Part shown: positions 49,579 to 62,699 of the stretch, piece after piece
How the letters are laid out: the number at the start of each line of letters is the position of its first letter
How positions within the stretch are numbered: the stretch's first letter is position 1
The notes under the pieces: generated by a model
What the model saw: only the letters and a program-made list of their open reading frames with translations
Told to the model about the DNA's origin: nothing
Database searches by the model: none
Source of the DNA: a bacterium SCSIO 12741
GTDB taxonomy: Bacteria; Bacteroidota; Bacteroidia; Flavobacteriales_G; Salibacteraceae
DNA length: 64,000 nucleotides
NCBI GenBank assembly: GCA_024398055.1
Contig: CP073749.1
Span: forward strand, 186,001 to 250,000
Direction: 5' to 3'
Translations under genes and position numbers: made by a program

Positions 49579-50889
49579 ATGCTATACCAAGAAAGACGGG
49601 ATTTTATCCGTAAAACCCTGATAGGAGGCCTGTTATCCGCAATCCAGTTACCCTTGCTGGCAGCCGATGACTCACCTATCGCCCAGGAATTATTAAAAAA
49701 AAGGTTCTCCCTTCCCAAATCAGATGCCGATTGGGCTAAGGTGAGAAAACAATTTCCGCTCAACGACAAACCGGTTTATTTTAATTCAGCAGGTTTAGGA
49801 CCTTCCCCCGAAGTAGTTGTAGACACTTTGTGCGAATGGACCAAAAAACTGGAAGAGTTAGGAGATACCGGAAGAAAGTATACCAAATCCCCACATCAAA
49901 CGCTGGCCGATTTTTTTGGTGTACCCCAATTCTCAGTGGCCGTTACCCGAAACACGACGGAAGGAATAAACATCGTGGCCCGAAGTCTTGATTTGAAGCC
50001 GGGTGATGAAGTCATTCTTACCCGACACGAACACATCGGAGGATCGGCGGCCTGGGTGGCCTTGCACAAGGAGATTGGCATTCAAGTCAAATTAGTAGAA
50101 CTTGATTTAAGCGGGAAGGAAAACTTCGATCGGATTACGCAAGCCGTAACGGACAAAACCAAGGTTATTTCCTTTTCCCACATCACCTGCACGACAGGAC
50201 TCCGATTACCGGCCAAGGAGATTGCTCAATTTTGCCGGGAGCGTGGAATATATTCCTGTGTGGATGGAGCTCAATCCGCTGGAATGATTCGCGTAAATCT
50301 ATCCGAAATGAACCCGGACTTTTATGTATCCAGCGGCCACAAGTGGCTCATGGGTCCTAAAGGTTCAGGCCTACTTTACATCAACCCGGAAACCATCAAA
50401 AACATTACCCCCATTTTTTCGGGAGCCTATACGGATAGTGAATTTGACCTGGCCAATTTGGAAATGAAATACATCCAAAAAACCACCCGGGAAGAGTACG
50501 GAACCAGAAATGCCCCTCAAGTGTTAGCCCTGGAATCGGCAGTTAAATTCCTGAATCAATTTGGTATCGATGAAATTGAGAAACGAGGTTTGCATCTGGC
50601 CGAATACTTGAAGAAAGGACTGAATGAAATTCCCGAAATAGAAGTCATCTCTCCCATGGATCGGGAATACGCGTCGGCCATTGTAACTTTTCGAATCAAA
50701 GGCATGCCTTTTCACGATGCTTACCTGGATTTGATGAAAACCTACCGCTGCCGGTTGAGGGTAATCTTCGAAAATGATTTAGAGGCCATTCGTGCCTCCT
50801 GTGCCATTTACAATACCGAAAAAGACCTGGACTTCCTGCTCGAATCTCTTCGAACGATGGTAGCCGTCAATGCCCAAAAAGAGGGTTAA
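49579..50889 (+). CDS. Class V PLP-dependent aminotransferase-fold protein with Tat signal
   Basis: A 436-residue protein. The N terminus (ERRDFIRKTLIGGLLSAIQLPLLAA) has the twin-arginine RRDFIRK signal, so it should be exported folded, which suits a cofactor enzyme. The catalytic part has RNTTEGINIVA, Asp229 in VDGAQSAG, and the Schiff-base Lys255 in SSGHKWLMGPKG. Isopenicillin N epimerase and kynureninase/cysteine desulfurase relatives share this fold. The substrate is unknown. It is a single gene. Confidence 0.88.
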   Translation: MLYQERRDFIRKTLIGGLLSAIQLPLLAADDSPIAQELLKKRFSLPKSDADWAKVRKQFPLNDKPVYFNSAGLGPSPEVVVDTLCEWTKKLEELGDTGRKYTKSPHQTLADFFGVPQFSVAVTRNTTEGINIVARSLDLKPGDEVILTRHEHIGGSAAWVALHKEIGIQVKLVELDLSGKENFDRITQAVTDKTKVISFSHITCTTGLRLPAKEIAQFCRERGIYSCVDGAQSAGMIRVNLSEMNPDFYVSSGHKWLMGPKGSGLLYINPETIKNITPIFSGAYTDSEFDLANLEMKYIQKTTREEYGTRNAPQVLALESAVKFLNQFGIDEIEKRGLHLAEYLKKGLNEIPEIEVISPMDREYASAIVTFRIKGMPFHDAYLDLMKTYRCRLRVIFENDLEAIRASCAIYNTEKDLDFLLESLRTMVAVNAQKEG

Positions 50890-50893
50890 TTCC

Positions 50894-51933
50894 CTACTTA
50901 TTCTGATCGACAAATTCGATAACCGCCTGATTGAAGGGAACCCACTCGTTGTTCATCGGTGAATGCCCGGATTTTGGATAGGTCACAATCTTTTTGACGG
51001 ATGAGCTAATGTGGTTGTAGGTATCGTATCCCAGGCTTGGTGGAACAACGAAGTCATACTCACCCCAAAGTATCAAGGTGGGAATGGTAACCTTATGCAG
51101 CTCACTGGTCAAAGAAGTACTTTCGATTTCATCGTTGAGCTTGCTACTCGTCTGGTTCCCGGCCATGTAACTGGTCAATGGGTTAATTGCTCCCGTCATC
51201 GGGGACAAGGTATTTCCACCTTCATCCGGGGCCTGAATAAATCCATCTTCCTGCAACCAACCTTCTGCTTCAAAGCCTTTTCGATTAATCTCCCCCCTTG
51301 TTCGGAGGTGATATTATTGGTATCAATGGCCTCTGCCCATTCCAGCGTACTTTGCCAATTTTCTACATTGTTGCCTAAGGCAATTTGCTCCTTAGCCACG
51401 CTAATAAACATGGCCACAGCATCCTTATTCAACTGGGGAATATCATGGGCTCCATCCACTTCGATCCAACCTTTGAGTTCGTGCTGATAATTGCCAGTGG
51501 TCATGTACCGAGCTGTGAGGGTGCCTCCCCAGGAATGGCCCAAAGCAAAAATGCTGATTTGCGAACCATACTTGGATTTGAGCGCTCTAACCACAGCAAG
51601 CATATCGTCGGCCATGGCTTGAACGGTCAGGTCTGAGGACTTGTATTTTCCGTGACTCATTCCCTGGCCTCGCTGATCCCAGTAGGCTATTCCATATTTC
51701 TCTTCTAACTCTACGCTATATTGGCCCGTACGGTACTCCAGTCCATTTCCCCCGGGTCCACCATGAACGATTAGAACAATCACGTTGGAATTAACATTTC
51801 CACGCATGTAAACGGGCATATCCGCCCCTTCGTAACGAACATAGAGGGTTTCATCTACCTTGGACAGATCCGAATCCTTGCTGCAAGAAAACAGAATCAG
51901 TGAAAGACTTAAAAGGATCATCAACTTTTTCAT
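50894..51933 (-). pseudogene. Lipoprotein alpha/beta hydrolase (proline iminopeptidase-like), interrupted by a frameshift
   Basis: The 5' part (51196-51933) encodes a lipoprotein signal (LSLILFSC, Cys17), oxyanion motif HGGPGGNG, and nucleophile elbow GHSWGG (Ser134). The 3' part (50894-51256 and upstream) gives the missing acid and His (GEYDFVVPP; SGHSPMNNEW) in a different frame. The two frames join if one G is added to the G6 run (minus strand; C6 at 51292-51297 on plus): the first frame reaches the run and the second continues with plausible sequence EINRKGFEAEGWLQEDG. The intact protein would have about 345 residues. Whether the loss is real, phase-variable or a consensus error cannot be told. 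Confidence 0.8.
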
Positions 51934-52574
51934 TTTCCCTTAGATTTTGAAACGGTTTTACATGCTGTTCTTTTGGGGCCGAAAAAGGGTGCATATCGAA
52001 TGCCGAGTTCCCAAGCCAATTCCGGTACCCAACCCGAGTTATAGCCCAACAAAAAGTGACCATTCATTCGAGTAAACACATCCAGTTTTTGCTCCTGACT
52101 CAGCTTAAATCGCTGTCCAAGTTCTCCACCGATAGACGGAGTGAAGTAACCTCGGGAGCTCACCGATTTTGATTTCACGCTCCCATCTGTAGAAACTTCA
52201 AGGGTTTCTCCTGAATTGAACTTGGTATAATAGCCGATTCCGGCGCTCACTCCCGTATAAAAGCCTCGCTTACCATACCGGTTCCATTGCAAATCTGCCG
52301 CAATCAGTAATCCCTTGTGGGACTGAGGATGCGTGTAAAAGGCAATACTTGGCGTAACCATGAGGTATTTATGGATGTTCTTCGTCTTTTCTCCTCGTAT
52401 TTTTTCCTTATTGACATGAATCAGGTGCCAGTCCATCCCCAATTTTATACCGGGATGGGTTAAAAAATTACCGTAGTAAGAAATTCTCCAGGGCAGGGCC
52501 TCTCTTTCTGCTGATTCCTGGCCATTCAGCTGAACCGCCAGTAGCAAAAAACACCCCCATAAAATACTTCGCAT
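51930..52574 (-). CDS. Outer-membrane beta-barrel-like protein of unknown function
   Basis: About 214 residues from ATG 52574, preceded by a promoter-like element that excludes the longer start at 52598. It has a signal peptide (MRSILWGCFLLLAVQLNGQ) and alternating polar/aromatic strands (LPWRISYYGNFLTHPGIKLGMDWHL; GFYTGVSAGIGYYTKF) typical of small outer-membrane barrels. No family name can be given. Its stop codon overlaps the start of the frameshifted hydrolase, so they may be cotranscribed. Confidence 0.72.
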   Translation of the reverse strand: MRSILWGCFLLLAVQLNGQESAEREALPWRISYYGNFLTHPGIKLGMDWHLIHVNKEKIRGEKTKNIHKYLMVTPSIAFYTHPQSHKGLLIAADLQWNRYGKRGFYTGVSAGIGYYTKFNSGETLEVSTDGSVKSKSVSSRGYFTPSIGGELGQRFKLSQEQKLDVFTRMNGHFLLGYNSGWVPELAWELGIRYAPFFGPKRTACKTVSKSKGK

Positions 52575-52595
52575 GAATTGTGATTTTGAGCTTAT

Positions 52596-52603
52596 CAAAG
52601 GTA
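52596..52603 (-). promoter_or_regulatory. Putative -7 promoter element TACCTTTG (minus strand)
   Basis: An exact TAnnTTTG match 21 bp upstream of the ATG at 52574. It overlaps the alternative start at 52598 and argues against it. Confidence 0.45.
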
Positions 52604-52717
52604 GAATTCTACGTCAACCATGAATTCACTTGCGTTTTTTTTTCGTCAAAAAAATTATGGAATAGTTTGTGCAAAGACTCTTACCTTTAAAGGAACAAAC
52701 TCCCAAAAAATCCAGCT

Positions 52718-53629
52718 ATGAAAAAATCACTTCGGGTTTCTCCCATCAAAAAGTACCGTGTTCCCAAATACCCATCCTACCGTGGAAGAGATCCACTCCA
52801 TTCTCAATCAGGACCTTTGACCAAAATTGGCTACTACTCTGCCGCCCTTCTCGGAGCAGTGGGTTTGTTCTCCTTTACTTCGGAGGGCGAAAAAAGGGAG
52901 CCGGAAAATCCGATCCGATTTAGCGAACTCGGCCTCCCTCATACCTATGCTATGTTTGGCACCGGACTGCCCGCACGCCTGGAACGTGAAGCCGCCATGG
53001 AAATAATCGAAAAAGTATTCAAAGAAAATGGGATTGCCCTAACTCCAAACTTTCCCATTGACGATGGTAAAACGGCCTTTCATGCAAGCGGTTTTAATGC
53101 CGAAAAAGGCATCGGTTACGTTTGGCTGGATAATCAAAGTGCCGATATCAGCTGTTTCAATGCCTGGTGGGGACCAGCAGATGAAGTTTTGCTCAAGGAA
53201 GACTTGAAAGCGCTTAAGGATTTTGAAGAGGGAGAGCCTGAATGGGAGGAGCTTCGAAAATTTCGAGAGAAGTTATTCAAAAACAAAAACTATTACCGGC
53301 TACTGGCTATTAAATCGAGCTCGTGGAACAATAAGGAGTTGGAGCAGGAAATTGAGAAATACATCATTGATCATAAACCATCTTCTGATCCGGAATACGG
53401 CCAGGAAATTCTGGATAAATACGACCGCGAAATGCTCGATATAAAGGAGGTGAAACAAGTGACGGAAGAACCGGATTACTCGATCGCGGCTTTTTCTCAA
53501 TATGCCAATTACTCGACCTATAGCGGTTGGGGCAATCGCCATTCTAAGAGTAAAGCAGAAGCCTTGGAGCACTTAGAAGAGCTGGTTGAAGATTACATCG
53601 ACTGGGCACGATCGGAGGGCCGCTTATGA
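52718..53629 (+). CDS. Unknown protein coupled to a radical SAM enzyme (possible modification target)
   Basis: A 303-residue protein I do not recognise. Visible parts: a very basic, Tyr/Pro-rich N terminus (residues 1-30, KKYRVPKYPSYRGR), a hydrophobic helix (about 37-54), a globular middle with IGYVWLDNQ, the only cysteine at residue 146 in ADISCFNAWWGP, a charged helical part, and an aromatic-rich stretch YSIAAFSQYANYSTYSGWG (about residues 254-272) before a helical C terminus. It overlaps the radical SAM start by 4 bp (ATGA), so both are made together. Inference: it is either the substrate or a partner of that enzyme. The ATG at 52718 gives a clean start. Confidence 0.75.
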   Translation: MKKSLRVSPIKKYRVPKYPSYRGRDPLHSQSGPLTKIGYYSAALLGAVGLFSFTSEGEKREPENPIRFSELGLPHTYAMFGTGLPARLEREAAMEIIEKVFKENGIALTPNFPIDDGKTAFHASGFNAEKGIGYVWLDNQSADISCFNAWWGPADEVLLKEDLKALKDFEEGEPEWEELRKFREKLFKNKNYYRLLAIKSSSWNNKELEQEIEKYIIDHKPSSDPEYGQEILDKYDREMLDIKEVKQVTEEPDYSIAAFSQYANYSTYSGWGNRHSKSKAEALEHLEELVEDYIDWARSEGRL

Positions 53630-54783
53630 TTTTTGAACCTGTCATTAAATACACGGCCAATTTTCACCTCACTCACCAATGCAATATGCGCTGCGGATAT
53701 TGCTATGCTGGGGAAAAAACAAACCTGTCGATGAGTGATGAAGTGATCGAGCAATCGATTGAATTTGTGCTCCAGGAGGTGGAAAAGAAAAAGGTGAATA
53801 AATTGGTTCTGGCTTTTCTGGGCGGAGAACCGCTGATGGAGCGAAAAAAGCTCTTCTATATTCAAGATGAATTCAGACGTCGACTGGGCGAGGAATTTAA
53901 AATTGTATCCCAGCTTTCCACCAATGGGCTACTTCTAACGGATGCGGTTATGGCGGAAATAACCCGGCGAAAAATTCTGGTTTCATTTAGCCTGGATGGC
54001 ACCCCAGAAACCATGCAACGTCAGCGCCCAACTCTTGGCCAATCAGACTACTCCCGCATTATCGACCGATCGATTCGGCACGTGCTTAAGTACAATCCGA
54101 TGACGAATGCCTTTTGCGTGATCACCCCAGAATCTGCAGGAGATGTGTTCGAAAATGTGACTTGGATCTATGACCAAGGCATGCGGTTTATCCATACCAC
54201 ACTCGATTATTCGGCAAATTGGACTTATTCTGACTTTGAACGGTTGGCCAAGGAATACCAAAAGTTGGCTCTATGGTACGAAGAGAAAGCCAGAAACCGA
54301 GAACATTTCTACCTCAGCTGTTTTGACGAACGGATCCAAACCCGCACCAAAAAGCCGGTTGCCTGTGAAGGAAAATGCTCGATCGGCAACAACCAAATTT
54401 CCATCTCCCCGGAAGGCACGCTCTATCCTTGTATCCAATTCGTAAAACCTGCTCATGAAGCCGATCAAAGCGTTCAATTGGGCGACCTGAAACATGGCAA
54501 GGATAAAAATCGCATCGATCGGTTGCAGGCAGACATTATCAAGGAAAAACCAGAATGCAAGGGATGTGCCCTTAAGGATCGCTGTACGACTTGGTGCTCT
54601 TGTATCAATTATGCCAGTACTCAAACGGTAACTCAGGCGAGCCCGGTAGCGTGTCATCATGAACAAACGCTCATACCCATCGTAGATCGGATGGGAAACC
54701 GATTGTGGAAGGAAAAGAATGATCTATTCGTTCAGAAACACTATAATCCCTTGTACAACCTGGTGGCCCAGGCCATGGCCTAA
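53626..54783 (+). CDS. Radical SAM/SPASM-domain protein, peptide-maturase-like
   Basis: A 385-residue enzyme. The radical SAM motif CNMRCGYC (Cys19, 23, 26) is followed by the GGEP motif (LGGEPL) and FSLDG. The C-terminal SPASM region shows CEGKC, a PCIQF cysteine, CKGCALKDRCTTWCSC and a final CHHEQ, enough ligands for two auxiliary [4Fe-4S] clusters. Enzymes of this layout modify proteins or peptides (sactionine, thioether or C-C links, or sulfatase-type oxidation). Its substrate is most simply the protein encoded just upstream; the genes overlap. No sulfatase or short precursor gene was seen nearby. Confidence 0.87.
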   Translation: MIFEPVIKYTANFHLTHQCNMRCGYCYAGEKTNLSMSDEVIEQSIEFVLQEVEKKKVNKLVLAFLGGEPLMERKKLFYIQDEFRRRLGEEFKIVSQLSTNGLLLTDAVMAEITRRKILVSFSLDGTPETMQRQRPTLGQSDYSRIIDRSIRHVLKYNPMTNAFCVITPESAGDVFENVTWIYDQGMRFIHTTLDYSANWTYSDFERLAKEYQKLALWYEEKARNREHFYLSCFDERIQTRTKKPVACEGKCSIGNNQISISPEGTLYPCIQFVKPAHEADQSVQLGDLKHGKDKNRIDRLQADIIKEKPECKGCALKDRCTTWCSCINYASTQTVTQASPVACHHEQTLIPIVDRMGNRLWKEKNDLFVQKHYNPLYNLVAQAMA

Positions 54784-54854
54784 GCTAAAAGTCCACTCCA
54801 GAATTTACTTGTATATTCGGGGGTTTCCAATTAATCCATTCAGCATAAAAGCCG

Positions 54855-55688
54855 ATGAATATTAATCGATTACCTCTTAAATCCGGATTTAGTATTATTC
54901 TCATTGCTCTGGTTTCCTGGGCCTGTCAACAAACCCCAATTGCCGAATTTTCTGCCAGCAATTACGTAGTTGACCCTGGTCAACGAATCACTTTTACCAA
55001 TGCGTCTATTTCAGGGGATAGCTACCAATGGGATTTTGGAGACAACTCAAGTAGCACGGAAATCAATCCGGTTCATAGTTATTCTCAATCTGGCTTTTAT
55101 ACGGTTAACCTTATTGCCTATTCTAAAAACCAAAAAAAGCACAATTCCTTTTCGGCCATGATTACGGTGAATGACACGACCGATCCCTGTGAGTCGGTAT
55201 TCTGTTACCACGATGGAACCTGTGAAGACGGAAAGTGTCAATGCAAGGAAGGCTATGAAGGGGAATTCTGCAACAAACAAATCACCCCAAAATACCTTAC
55301 TGTTAACCGTATTGAAATTACCCGTTTCCCTTCCAAAAGAAGCAATGGGACGGATTGGGATGTTGACGGAAATGGCCGCCCGGATATTTATGTTCAGATG
55401 ACGGAAAGACTGAATGGAACGGAGCTATGGAAAGCAGACGATCAGATTAGGACGGATGCGGAAACCAAGTTTACCTACGACTATACCCCATCACCCACTT
55501 TCCGATTGAATGATCCGGAAGCTGAATATGTGCTCGGCATTTACGACTACGACGACCAAAGTGCTGACGACTATATGGGTGGACTCTACTTCACTCCTTA
55601 CCATTCCACCAATGATTTTCCAGATGTCATTACGGTTGACGGGGGAACCAAAGTGGCCTTTAAGCTACATGTGAGCTATTCTTTTTAA
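54855..55688 (+). CDS. Lipoprotein with PKD and EGF-like domains
   Basis: A 277-residue protein with a lipoprotein-type signal (LIALVSWAC). Residues ~30-110 form a PKD domain (YQWDFGDNSSSTEINPVHSY), residues ~112-145 an EGF-like module (CESVFCYHDGTCEDGKCQCKEGYEGEFC, six Cys), and the rest a C2-like beta domain (VDGNGRPDIYVQM...VLGIYDYDDQSADDYMGG). It should be attached to the outer membrane. Function is unknown. Confidence 0.82.
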   Translation: MNINRLPLKSGFSIILIALVSWACQQTPIAEFSASNYVVDPGQRITFTNASISGDSYQWDFGDNSSSTEINPVHSYSQSGFYTVNLIAYSKNQKKHNSFSAMITVNDTTDPCESVFCYHDGTCEDGKCQCKEGYEGEFCNKQITPKYLTVNRIEITRFPSKRSNGTDWDVDGNGRPDIYVQMTERLNGTELWKADDQIRTDAETKFTYDYTPSPTFRLNDPEAEYVLGIYDYDDQSADDYMGGLYFTPYHSTNDFPDVITVDGGTKVAFKLHVSYSF

Positions 55689-59459: not shown

Positions 59460-61058
59460 CTACTGCGTAACCACAAACCTTTGCAACCGAACAGTGGTAT
59501 TAGATTCAAAACGGACGTAATATGTGCCTGCTTTTAAGTCATGAACCGAAATTCGTTCAACTTGCAATCTACTCTCCCAGGATTTCAGCTCTCTTCCCTG
59601 ATTATCCAAAATAGTAAGCATGCTATTTCTTAAGTTGACTTCTGGCAATTCAATGTTCAAATAATTGGATGTTGGATTGGGATAAACTTTTAATCCTATC
59701 ACGGGATTATCCATTTCCTCTTTGCCGGTTAGAGTCTGATCCGTGAACCTAAACAAAAGGTTCGTAATGAAATCTGGTTTATGAATGATTGAATCACCAA
59801 TGCGCAAAGAATCTCCAAAAGAAGACAAACCGTAGATCAAGTCATTACCTTTCATATCCTCATCTTCAATACCTTGGCTTCGCAAATAAGTTGGGATTTC
59901 AAGGACCAATTGGTTATCTGAAGGCAAGCCAATTGTTCGATAAAATACGAAAGACGTGTCTATTGTTGGATTCTGAACAATTCGCCGAAATCCATTATAG
60001 AAGAAATCCTCACTCCCATTGGAGATAAGACCTCCAAGTCTTCCTGATTTTCCAGCGGACACCAATTTACCATCATCCTTGCCAAAAATCATTTGAACAA
60101 TGTAGATTCCTGAATTCAAATCGACAACCTGACCATCAACCATCACATTATCTAGTGCAAAAAGCTCGACCAATACCTCTCCATGATAAAGAGTCATAGC
60201 TACAAAATCATCATCTTCAATAGAACCGAATCCTTTTAGCCAAACCAAATTTCCTTCTTGAAATTTAGCCACGAAACAATCTGCCTTTCCTCTATAAGGG
60301 ATGGTTTTACCTAAAACCTTCCAATCATCAATAAAATGAAGACCTAAGACGTAACAATCACCAGTCTTCTGATCAACAACAATTTGCTTAATCCGAATGG
60401 TTAAATCAAAAACATACGACCATATAGGGTTTCCTTTGAGATCAAGACAGGCAACAAATCCATCGGAATAGATCAGGTGAAATCTTCTTTGTTTTAACTG
60501 GACCTGATCTGAGAGATTCAGTGTATCATAGAACTCCCCTCCTACGAAAATCTTCTCCTTTTCGATTACCATGGTCGAAGGTACTACGCGTCCAGAAGTA
60601 TAGGTTTGAGCCAGATTGACCTTACCCTTAGTGTCAAAGCCAAGAAGTACCATATTACTTGTACCTGGCGTTTGAACAATAGCCGACCCATTGGGGTAAA
60701 TGGTTCCCTCAAAGTCCTGGATTGAATACAACCGGTTGGAAGAGTCACAATCCAGGTGCATATGCCCATAGTCTCCATCTAAATCGGTGATCCATTCAGG
60801 GTTTCCTTCAGAGTTCAATTTCGATACAAAATTGCTATGATTTACTCTTGTGGATTTGTTCAATACCAAAGAACCTAATTGAAGGGTGTCCCCAAAACTA
60901 CTCCCATAATAAGTGTTCCCTTGATAATCAAGACATACTGATGCTTTGTTTTGAATGGAAGGGCACTGGATTACTTGAAACCAATCGAATGTCAGATCCT
61001 GGGCTTGGACCATACCAAACGAGAAGGCAAGAATCAAGAAAAGAAATCTAAACTTCAA
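59460..61058 (-). CDS. T9SS-secreted protein, paralogue A
   Basis: A 532-residue protein with a signal peptide (FRFLFLILAFSFGMVQAQ), a body of SBBP/propeller-like repeats (GNPEWITDLDGDYGH; GNPIWSYVFDL; GNLVWLKGFGSIEDDDFVAM) and a type A T9SS domain at the end (LKVYPNPTSNYLNIELPEV...YYVRFESNTTVRLQRFVVTQ). It is about half identical in the body to the next gene upstream, but far more alike in the last ~75 residues. It is the last gene of the minus-strand cluster, 45 bp after paralogue B. Confidence 0.87.
   Translation of the reverse strand: MKFRFLFLILAFSFGMVQAQDLTFDWFQVIQCPSIQNKASVCLDYQGNTYYGSSFGDTLQLGSLVLNKSTRVNHSNFVSKLNSEGNPEWITDLDGDYGHMHLDCDSSNRLYSIQDFEGTIYPNGSAIVQTPGTSNMVLLGFDTKGKVNLAQTYTSGRVVPSTMVIEKEKIFVGGEFYDTLNLSDQVQLKQRRFHLIYSDGFVACLDLKGNPIWSYVFDLTIRIKQIVVDQKTGDCYVLGLHFIDDWKVLGKTIPYRGKADCFVAKFQEGNLVWLKGFGSIEDDDFVAMTLYHGEVLVELFALDNVMVDGQVVDLNSGIYIVQMIFGKDDGKLVSAGKSGRLGGLISNGSEDFFYNGFRRIVQNPTIDTSFVFYRTIGLPSDNQLVLEIPTYLRSQGIEDEDMKGNDLIYGLSSFGDSLRIGDSIIHKPDFITNLLFRFTDQTLTGKEEMDNPVIGLKVYPNPTSNYLNIELPEVNLRNSMLTILDNQGRELKSWESRLQVERISVHDLKAGTYYVRFESNTTVRLQRFVVTQ
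59505..59693 (-). repeat. Direct-repeat copy 1 (T9SS domain region)
   Basis: This 189-bp stretch inside paralogue A is about nine-tenths identical by eye to 61149-61337. It codes for the shared C-terminal sorting domain. Confidence 0.85.
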
Positions 61059-61103
61059 GGTAAATTGATGATTCGAGGTTAACGCTATAAAACTACTCCG
61101 TTA

Positions 61104-62699
61104 TCAGGGTAAGACGATGAACTTCTGAAGTCGATAAGTCAAGTCGGATTCAAAACGTACGTAATATGTTCCTGCTTTTAAGTCATGAATCGAAATTCGT
61201 TCAACTTGCGACCTACTCTCCCGGGATTTCAACTCTCTTCCCTGATTATCCAAAATAGTAAGCATGCCATTTTCTAAATTAACTTCTTGCAATTCAATGT
61301 TCAAATAATCAGATGTTGGATTGGGAAAAACTTTTAAAGCTACCTGAGATGTTTGAGGTACTCCAATGGTTGTCAGAGTATGATCGCTGAATTTCAAAAC
61401 GATGCTTGTTCGATAATCAGGTTTATAAATGATCGAATCCCGGATTCTAACGGAATCTCCTGATGACGTTAAAACGTAGGCCAAGTCACGATTTTTCATA
61501 TCTCCATCAATCAATCCTTGGCTATCCATATAAGTGGAAATCTTAAGAACTTCCTTATGGTTTGTCGATTTGTTTTCTGTTCTGATAAAATGAAATGAAG
61601 TATCAAAACCATTTTGAGTGGATCTAAATCCATTGTAAAAGAAGTCCTCACTTCCATTGGATACCATACCTGGATAGGTTCCATTTTCAATAATCTGGTT
61701 TACTTCCCCATCTTGTTTATCTATTAATAACTCAACCAAAGTTCCATCTGTTTTTTTCGGGATTATATGTCCATCAACCTTAAAGTCTTCCCAAGCTACC
61801 GACCGAACCAAAATTTGGTTATTAAAGATTGTCATAGTCACAAGATCGTCGTCAACTGAAGTTCCAAAACCTTTTACCCAAATCAGTTTTCCCTCCATGA
61901 ACTTTGCTACAAAAGCATCACTTCCTCCAACATAAGCTACACTTTCGCCATTGACATTCCAATCTGAAATAGAGTGATTTCCTAAAATGTAAACATCATT
62001 ATTACTCTGATCAATATGGATTTGATTACCCTTCACATTCTGATCCAGAACATAGGACCATAGGTATTTCCCATCCAAGCCATAACAGGCAACAAAACCA
62101 TCTGTATAAATTAAGTGTGAACGGCGTTGATTTAATTGTACCCCATTATCTAAGTTCAGGGTATCCTTGAATTCCCCAGAAAAAAGGATTCTATCCTTTC
62201 CTACTTCGAGAGCGGATGGAACTGCTCTATATGTGGTCAATTGTCTGGCCCAATTGACACTTCCATCGTTCCCCATGCTCATTAGAAGTAAATTATTTAC
62301 TCCATTCGTTTGAGTAAATGAATGATTTGGTGGATTAATCATTCCTTCAAAATCTTGCACAGAAACTAACGATGAAGCATTGTGATCAATCAGGCTATGA
62401 CTATACTCCCCATCCAAATCCAAAAACCATTGACAGTTTCCATTTTCATCGAACCTAGCGAAATAACTGCTACGGTTCGTTCTCTGTGGCCCTGATACTA
62501 AAAAGGTATCGACTTTCAATTGATCTTGAAAATCACCGGTTACGTAAGTATTATTTGAATCGTCACAACAAACTGATGGGTCGCTTTGGGTAGAATTGCA
62601 TTGAATAACCTGAAACCAGTCCAGAGTCAGATCCTGGGCATGTAGGTTGCTAACAATACTCCAACAAATCAGTGCTATGTTACCTATTCGCTTTAACAA
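61104..62699 (-). CDS. T9SS-secreted protein, paralogue B
   Basis: A 531-residue paralogue of the preceding protein, starting at TTG 62699 with a signal peptide (LKRIGNIALICWSIVSNLHAQ). It carries the same DLTLDWFQVIQC N terminus, propeller-like repeats (WVKGFGTSVDDDLVTM) and a near-identical sorting domain (LKVFPNPTSDYLNIELQEV...). Its start lies 20 bp inside the end of the subtilisin gene, so translation is probably coupled. The duplication is probably a tandem event. Confidence 0.87.
   Translation of the reverse strand: MLKRIGNIALICWSIVSNLHAQDLTLDWFQVIQCNSTQSDPSVCCDDSNNTYVTGDFQDQLKVDTFLVSGPQRTNRSSYFARFDENGNCQWFLDLDGEYSHSLIDHNASSLVSVQDFEGMINPPNHSFTQTNGVNNLLLMSMGNDGSVNWARQLTTYRAVPSALEVGKDRILFSGEFKDTLNLDNGVQLNQRRSHLIYTDGFVACYGLDGKYLWSYVLDQNVKGNQIHIDQSNNDVYILGNHSISDWNVNGESVAYVGGSDAFVAKFMEGKLIWVKGFGTSVDDDLVTMTIFNNQILVRSVAWEDFKVDGHIIPKKTDGTLVELLIDKQDGEVNQIIENGTYPGMVSNGSEDFFYNGFRSTQNGFDTSFHFIRTENKSTNHKEVLKISTYMDSQGLIDGDMKNRDLAYVLTSSGDSVRIRDSIIYKPDYRTSIVLKFSDHTLTTIGVPQTSQVALKVFPNPTSDYLNIELQEVNLENGMLTILDNQGRELKSRESRSQVERISIHDLKAGTYYVRFESDLTYRLQKFIVLP
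61149..61337 (-). repeat. Direct-repeat copy 2 (T9SS domain region)
   Basis: Partner of the repeat at 59505-59693, located at the same place in paralogue B. Confidence 0.85.

Follow-up and report, generated by a model that had tools for sequence, protein, structure and literature searches.

A coupled orphan protein and radical SAM/SPASM enzyme

Our analysis of the window (the whole stretch of DNA examined, 64,000 nucleotides) revealed a real, rare and uncharacterised gene pair, in which an orphan partner protein (P0001) is coupled to an enzyme of a recognisable, unnamed branch of the radical SAM/SPASM superfamily (P0002). The pair is isolated among the genomes sampled. P0001 is probably the substrate of P0002, and the best reading of the whole, that the enzyme cross-links an aromatic segment of its coupled partner, is put forward tentatively.

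52,718 to 53,629, plus strand: ORF of P0001, a 303-aa orphan protein and candidate substrate
53,626 to 54,783, plus strand: P0002, a 385-aa radical SAM/SPASM enzyme (PF04055, 3.2e-12; PDB 5wgg, 2.8e-28)
53,626 to 53,629, plus strand: ATGA, in which the stop of the P0001 gene overlaps the start of the P0002 gene, read from the sequence

The protein lengths, coordinates and overlap proved to be as the first-pass annotation had given them. Its larger claim, of a modified-protein system, divides in two: a coupled pair of uncharacterised protein and maturase is well supported, since the genes overlap, P0002 is the only one of 22 radical SAM places in the genome with a SPASM cysteine pattern and its nearest relatives have adjacent partners, whereas the role of P0001 as substrate goes a step beyond these observations.

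Upstream of P0001 lies a divergent ORF (51,930-52,598, minus strand) with no Pfam match, and downstream of P0002 a gene for a PKD/EGF-domain protein (54,855-55,688, plus strand), which might share a transcript with P0002 given the common strand and the gap of 71 bases. In agreement with the earlier description, no precursor-like frame was found among ORFs of at least 20 aa in the flanks (52,300-52,760 and 54,700-55,000), and no sulfatase adjoins the pair; sulfatases do occur elsewhere in the genome. Scans for promoters and terminators gave nothing above shuffled sequences, and the Rfam scan gave nothing above chance. The G+C contents of the P0001 and P0002 genes (0.462 and 0.464) are matched among the remaining window ORFs of at least 200 aa, which range from 0.376 to 0.470, and are therefore uninformative on lateral origin; lateral acquisition of the pair would be a guess that base composition neither supports nor refutes.

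Sequence features and family position of the enzyme

53,680 to 53,703, plus strand: CNMRCGYC, SAM-binding [4Fe-4S] motif of P0002 (motif)
54,364 to 54,654, plus strand: SPASM cysteine region of P0002, C247 to C343 (motif and alignment)
54,592 to 54,609, plus strand: WCSCIN, the WCxCxN tail motif of P0002 (alignment)

P0002 carries the marks of the radical SAM/SPASM superfamily, with CX3CX2C at residues 19-26, GGEP at residue 66 and SPASM cysteines. It had been described as a complete radical SAM enzyme with SPASM cysteines enough for two auxiliary clusters, and this description holds: C-terminal cysteines stand at residues 247, 251, 269, 311, 314, 320, 324, 326 and 343, including CX2CX5CX3C at 311-324 and a last cysteine at 343. 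In Pfam, Radical_SAM (PF04055) matched at 3.2e-12, and the SPASM model reached 19.5 bits, slightly short of its 21.5 cut-off. The best solved relative was 5wgg (E = 2.8e-28 over residues 12-348), identified as CteB in PMC10352776. The first SAM cysteine is at residue 19, and since the enzyme thus starts almost at the radical SAM core, no N-terminal recognition domain is evident.

The NCBIfam scan matched 78 families, and among the best 25 of these no family cut-off was reached. The PapB ranthipeptide maturase family (NF047865) scored highest, at 172.8 bits over nearly the whole profile (1.1e-50; cut-off 340), followed by the CXXX-repeat system (TIGR04115, 123.9 bits; cut-off 350), SCIFF (119.8; 425), dynobactin DynA (105.2; 450), the anaerobic sulfatase maturase (TIGR03942, 91.5; 349.45) and the QHNDH maturase QhpD (TIGR03906, 88.3; 453). 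Two cyclophane maturases besides DynA, among the same best 25, scored lower still, with 76.2 bits for YhhB (cut-off 445) and 57 for AmcB (cut-off 425). Judged by these profiles, P0002 is an unclassified SPASM enzyme nearest to thioether-making models and a member of none. Matches to viperin (pVip) in PADLOC covered residues 10-138 only and were set aside.

Searches for relatives of the enzyme came back empty close to the host, both at 1e-25 (148 further near genomes) and at 1e-18 (394 other genomes of the class). A pattern scan of the genome collection, which reaches close relatives only, returned one distant locus (L005, 23% identity), and the same kind of scan of viral contigs returned none; the plasmid collection gave one record, and the phage collection 13, with distant radical SAM matches. 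Across the phylum, 24 of 394 other genomes held relatives, at 26 places with E values at least as good as 1e-20 and identities of 23-30%.

Enzymes with a WCxCxN tail and their adjacent partners

P0002 was aligned with five of the 26 relatives (24-28% identity). All six enzymes have in common a WCxCxN motif, then CxxE, after the SPASM core, together with a similar C-terminal extension, and residues W323, C324, C326, N328, C343 and E346 of P0002 are invariant in the six. WCxCxN is present in 17 of the 26 relatives' loci, and an ORF of 131-189 aa with a GGxxxxHxH pattern adjoins the enzyme gene in 17 of the 26. The two sets largely coincide: the partner adjoins the enzyme in 16 of the 17 WCxCxN loci vs none of the eight complete relatives lacking the motif, these loci being related to one another and not independent events. 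In the exception, L010, the partner is present in broken form, and L024, outside the eight, has the partner while its sequence is cut off before the motif position. The partner is downstream of the enzyme in L007 and L023. Fifteen of the 17 partners have no cysteine, and by our reading of the ORFs the single cysteine of the other two (L008 and L015) precedes the likely start. Five loci (L025 and L027-L030) have cysteine-repeat ORFs in place of this partner, and these CXXX-type relatives lack WCxCxN. Neither partner pattern occurs in L010, L021, L026 and L031; by eye, the last three have cysteine-bearing ORFs near the enzyme.

The partners of the WCxCxN loci (L006-L020 and L022-L024) follow the consensus GIPADFW ... 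GGRxTPHLHYKGDxYxLDAxQW. Two members scanned against NCBIfam gave no match, and 11 scanned against Pfam gave no significant one. The genomes of most WCxCxN relatives come from a family that may be the Chlorobiaceae. A search of the open literature, outside subscription journals, found nothing on SPASM enzymes with Chlorobi and RiPPs or on ranthipeptides of Chlorobium. Enzymes with the WCxCxN tail and GGxxTPHLH partners look, from their sequences, like an undescribed family of maturases and targets.

P0002 has both the WCxCxN motif and the CxxE tail and by the former belongs with that branch. Its own partner is of another kind: P0001 is unrelated to the GGxxTPHLH proteins, and the best place for such a protein in the genome reached only E = 0.66. 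A by-eye likeness between GLPA...EIIEKVFKENG in P0001 and GIPADFW...FIKANKL in the partners was rejected as homology (hhalign probability 0.1%). A partner HMM, made from 10 of 11 alignment rows with the divergent L007 partner omitted (the L007 and L023 rows comprise the first 120 residues only), did not report P0001 despite reporting 1010 of 2002 sequences, nearly all of them shuffles, and pairwise comparisons of P0001 with 10 partners gave shuffle p values of 0.03 to 0.88. What holds for the partners need not, on account of this unrelatedness, hold for P0001. In a tree of 22 enzymes, from which a motif filter had removed the five CXXX-type enzymes (L025 and L027-L030), P0002 sits on a very long branch and its placement is not reliable.

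The habit of keeping an adjacent partner gene, shared by the nearest relatives of P0002, also bears on the plainest account of the pair, that P0001 is an ordinary protein, merely co-transcribed, and that the overlap has no functional meaning. No P0001 homologue was found that could show a lasting linkage, which leaves some room for this account; translational overlaps of four bases with the gene of a maturase-type enzyme are, however, as a rule functional, and together with the relatives' adjacent partners this makes mere co-transcription distinctly unlikely.

The orphan partner P0001

52,826 to 52,876, plus strand: weak hydrophobic stretch IGYYSAALLGAVGLFSF, P0001 residues 37-53, a possible signal anchor (suggested by Kyte-Doolittle values)
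53,147 to 53,176, plus strand: ISCFNAWWGP with C146, the sole cysteine of P0001 (sequence)
53,492 to 53,536, plus strand: aromatic period-three run FSQ-YAN-YST-YSG-WGN, P0001 residues 259-273, candidate modification site (shuffling)

P0001 was said to belong to no recognised family, and searches of NCBIfam, Pfam, PHROGs, PADLOC and PDB agree, with no match beyond chance (best values 0.031 in NCBIfam, 0.46 in Pfam and 0.4 in PDB; none in PHROGs or PADLOC). Homologues were equally absent from the genome draws, which overlap and contained no other genome of the host's genus: none at 1e-4 in 41 other genomes of the order or in 394 of the class, and a single chance match both in the "relatives" draw (148 other genomes) and in the phylum draw (394 others, at 0.01). 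Short-pattern scans of the genome and viral collections, which pick up close relatives only, found none, nor was any found in the plasmid and phage collections. Three candidates were dismissed as chance: one match (L002) sits inside a frame that looks like a sugar epimerase, another (L003) overlaps a glycosyltransferase-like frame, and the third (L055) falls where an unrelated secreted protein begins and is interrupted by a stop.

The protein had been called membrane-anchored. A hydrophobic stretch is indeed present at residues 37-53, preceded by a basic-rich tail of 36 residues; it is single and weak (best 19-residue Kyte-Doolittle mean 1.27), so that P0001 is perhaps a membrane protein. A structure model from the single sequence was useless (pLDDT 35.7).

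The first-pass annotation had also pointed to a Tyr/Trp/Ser-rich segment near the end of P0001, which we locate at residues 259-273, where five aromatics follow one another at an exact spacing of three. We noticed this run post hoc, and it is only moderately improbable: shuffling the whole protein gave p of about 0.005 (0.00515, and 0.00574 in the other run), permuting only the local 36 residues gave 0.0005, and counting any of the periods 2, 3, 4, 5 and 7 gave 0.026. P0001 is the sole carrier of such a run among 164 distinct mechanical ORFs of at least 200 aa in the DNA analysed (the further carrier, L050, being P0001 itself), and runs of four aromatics at spacing three occur in two other window ORFs (n = 37). 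The segment could be merely part of a structural helix, as the P0001 model is unusable.

Candidate modification sites and chemistry

If P0001 is the target of P0002, its single cysteine is one site to consider. That P0001 has exactly one cysteine, C146, within ISCFNAWWGP was confirmed, and this residue lies close to Trp150 and Trp151. P0002 could therefore modify C146 through a thioether from Cys to Asp or Glu, as in ranthipeptides or QhpD products, or through a Cys-Trp link in SCFNAWWGP. Such chemistry would suit the best profiles of P0002, which are those of thioether makers (PapB at 172.8, CXXX at 123.9, SCIFF at 119.8 and the QHNDH maturase at 88.3 bits), and some more distant relatives sit beside cysteine-rich proteins (the five CXXX-type loci and, by eye, L021, L026 and L031). 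All of these scores are under the family cut-offs, however, and the surroundings of C146 fit poorly. According to PMC9413430, the natural PapB motif is Cys-X3-Asp/Glu and PapB is reported to accept Cys-to-acid separations of zero to six; PMC8172795 gives a stricter limit. Neither Cys-X3-Asp/Glu nor Cys-X0-6-Asp/Glu occurs anywhere in P0001, where the nearest downstream acid, D155, is separated from C146 by eight residues. PapB-type thioether chemistry is also not the default expectation for this branch, because the WCxCxN relatives adjoin mostly cysteine-free partners. Modification at C146 is thus an unlikely account.

The aromatic segment is a better candidate, because C146 is far from an acid and the triplets of residues 259-273 resemble the residue pairs joined in cyclophanes. 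In the products of three-residue cyclophane enzymes, an aromatic residue at position i (Trp, Phe, Tyr or His) is bonded to the beta carbon at i+2, where Asn, Asp, Arg, Ser or Ala stands; the pairs named in passages of PMC11002830 include Trp with Asn, and Tyr with Asp, Arg or Ala. Against these pairs WGN fits, YAN is near, and FSQ, YST and YSG fit less well; Tyr with Asn, Thr or Gly is not among the pairs named in those passages. Set against cyclophane formation, the profile scores of P0002 place it nearer to thioether makers than to cyclophane makers. We regard residues 259-273 as a possible site, with a cross-link as its possible chemistry, both held more loosely than the assignment of P0001 as substrate.

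Under our preferred reading, in which P0002 modifies P0001 at the aromatic segment, P0002 would be a cytosolic radical SAM/SPASM maturase with the coupled P0001 as its substrate, the two proteins being produced together from their overlapping genes. The SAM cluster of P0002 would generate a 5'-deoxyadenosyl radical, by which a side-chain carbon of P0001 loses a hydrogen, and the product would be re-oxidised via the two auxiliary clusters of the enzyme. The likeliest site would be FSQ-YAN-YST-YSG-WGN, each triplet of which would receive a ring-to-carbon join of its own, such as W271 to N273 or Y262 to N264, and the segment would be stiffened. Modified P0001 would presumably stay whole, as the unit has no protease or exporter gene, and residues 37-53 might anchor it in the membrane. 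In its most far-reaching form, which we consider decidedly doubtful, all five tandem triplets of a membrane-anchored P0001 would be stitched into cyclophanes, giving a stiff post-translational rod on a protein that stays whole.

An alternative reading leaves P0001 itself unmodified: it would act as a second enzyme beside P0002, or in an accessory or recognition role, and the target would be a small peptide or protein encoded elsewhere. The lack of an evident N-terminal recognition domain in P0002 is consistent with this, as are the large size of P0001 and the absence from it of a typical leader-core layout. The examined flanks hold no precursor-like ORF, however, and among the WCxCxN relatives the obvious candidate for a target is encoded right beside the enzyme. 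An accessory role for P0001 is accordingly improbable in our view, and about as much so as modification at C146.

Radical SAM enzymes and sulfatases in the genome

The genome contains 22 places matching PF04055 (E up to 0.001, P0002 included), 21 of them over the family cut-off, and among these 22 only P0002 shows the SPASM cysteine pattern, as searched with two regular expressions. As the product of the coupled gene, P0001 is the natural candidate target of this sole SPASM-type enzyme. Six of the other radical SAM genes (L037, L040, L041, L043, L045 and L047) lie within 13 kb (G000:C1:1056598-1069489) and are possibly a biosynthetic cluster.

Sulfatases (PF00884) occur at six places, four of which have the cysteine-type site C-x-[PA]-x-R (CSPTR, CSPSR, CTAGR and CAPSR). 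With P0002 the only SPASM-type enzyme by its cysteine pattern, it might serve as the maturase of these sulfatases, P0001 being incidental. Its score against the sulfatase maturase family (91.5 bits vs a cut-off of 349.45) is well under that for PapB, however, no sulfatase adjoins it, and cysteine-type sulfatases can also be served by the oxygen-dependent FGE. A role in sulfatase maturation appears very improbable.

Comparison with known systems

P0002 resembles the PapB family (NF047865), its best-scoring named family, in combining radical SAM and SPASM regions; it differs in reaching 172.8 of the 340 bits and in a partner with one cysteine and no Cys-X3-Asp/Glu. Another likeness is to the WCxCxN enzymes (L006-L020, L022 and L023), with 24-28% identity among the five aligned and a shared SPASM spacing and tail. 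Their loci, too, have an adjacent mid-size partner, there mostly cysteine-free; unlike here, it is a GGxxTPHLH protein, unrelated to P0001 and not found in this genome. If the WCxCxN partners are targets, they would carry non-thioether chemistry, being mostly cysteine-free. The aromatic-X-X triplets of P0001 resemble the substrate motifs of the triceptide maturases OscB, XncB, YxdB and YhhB; those enzymes, in contrast, act on peptides, and P0002 is far under the YhhB and AmcB cut-offs.

Larger targets have precedents, and the first-pass annotation was too strong in holding that a large substrate would be new. Sulfatases are matured by radical SAM enzymes (PMC8326336), and the ~9-kDa QhpC, the small subunit of QHNDH, is modified by a SPASM enzyme (PMC8172795). 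A large substrate is not new in itself, given these known substrates. QhpD and the anaerobic sulfatase maturases are thus SPASM enzymes that act on proteins rather than short peptides; unlike them, the P0001/P0002 pair has no coupled multi-cysteine QhpC-like chain and no adjacent sulfatase. Large candidate targets also lie beside the enzyme in two loci of the CXXX-repeat system (TIGR04115), from which P0001, with one cysteine in 303 aa and no cysteine repeat, differs. These loci, L028 (1-4035) and L029 (1-4038), have CXXX-repeat ORFs of 242 and 187 aa, with 46 and 36 cysteines, beside a radical SAM gene; by eye, both ORFs have an N-terminal hydrophobic segment and would be precedents for big, perhaps exported targets.

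In the open literature, subscription journals apart, we found nothing on the modification of membrane-anchored, Tyr-rich proteins by radical SAM/SPASM enzymes. If our preferred reading is correct, radical SAM cross-linking would reach beyond short peptides to a large bacterial protein, probably an anchored one; in the most far-reaching form of that reading, the product would be a cross-linked structural or receptor protein of large size and not a peptide natural product. The preferred reading would also point to an unnamed SPASM branch, that of the WCxCxN enzymes, whose usual partners lack cysteine.

Other genes in the window

A proline-iminopeptidase-like hydrolase (50,894-51,933, minus strand) extends over two overlapping frames, 51,196-51,933 and 50,894-51,256, and looks frameshifted. 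At 49,579-50,889 on the plus strand is a class V aminotransferase-like protein that resembles cysteine desulfurases and PvdN at scores under the cut-offs; its N-terminal RRDF resembles a Tat signal. On the minus strand, 59,460-62,699 encodes two neighbouring proteins of 532 and 531 aa that look secreted and resemble each other, with similar C-terminal sorting-type ends and G+C contents (0.392 and 0.376) below most of the window, and this pair looks like a tandem duplication.
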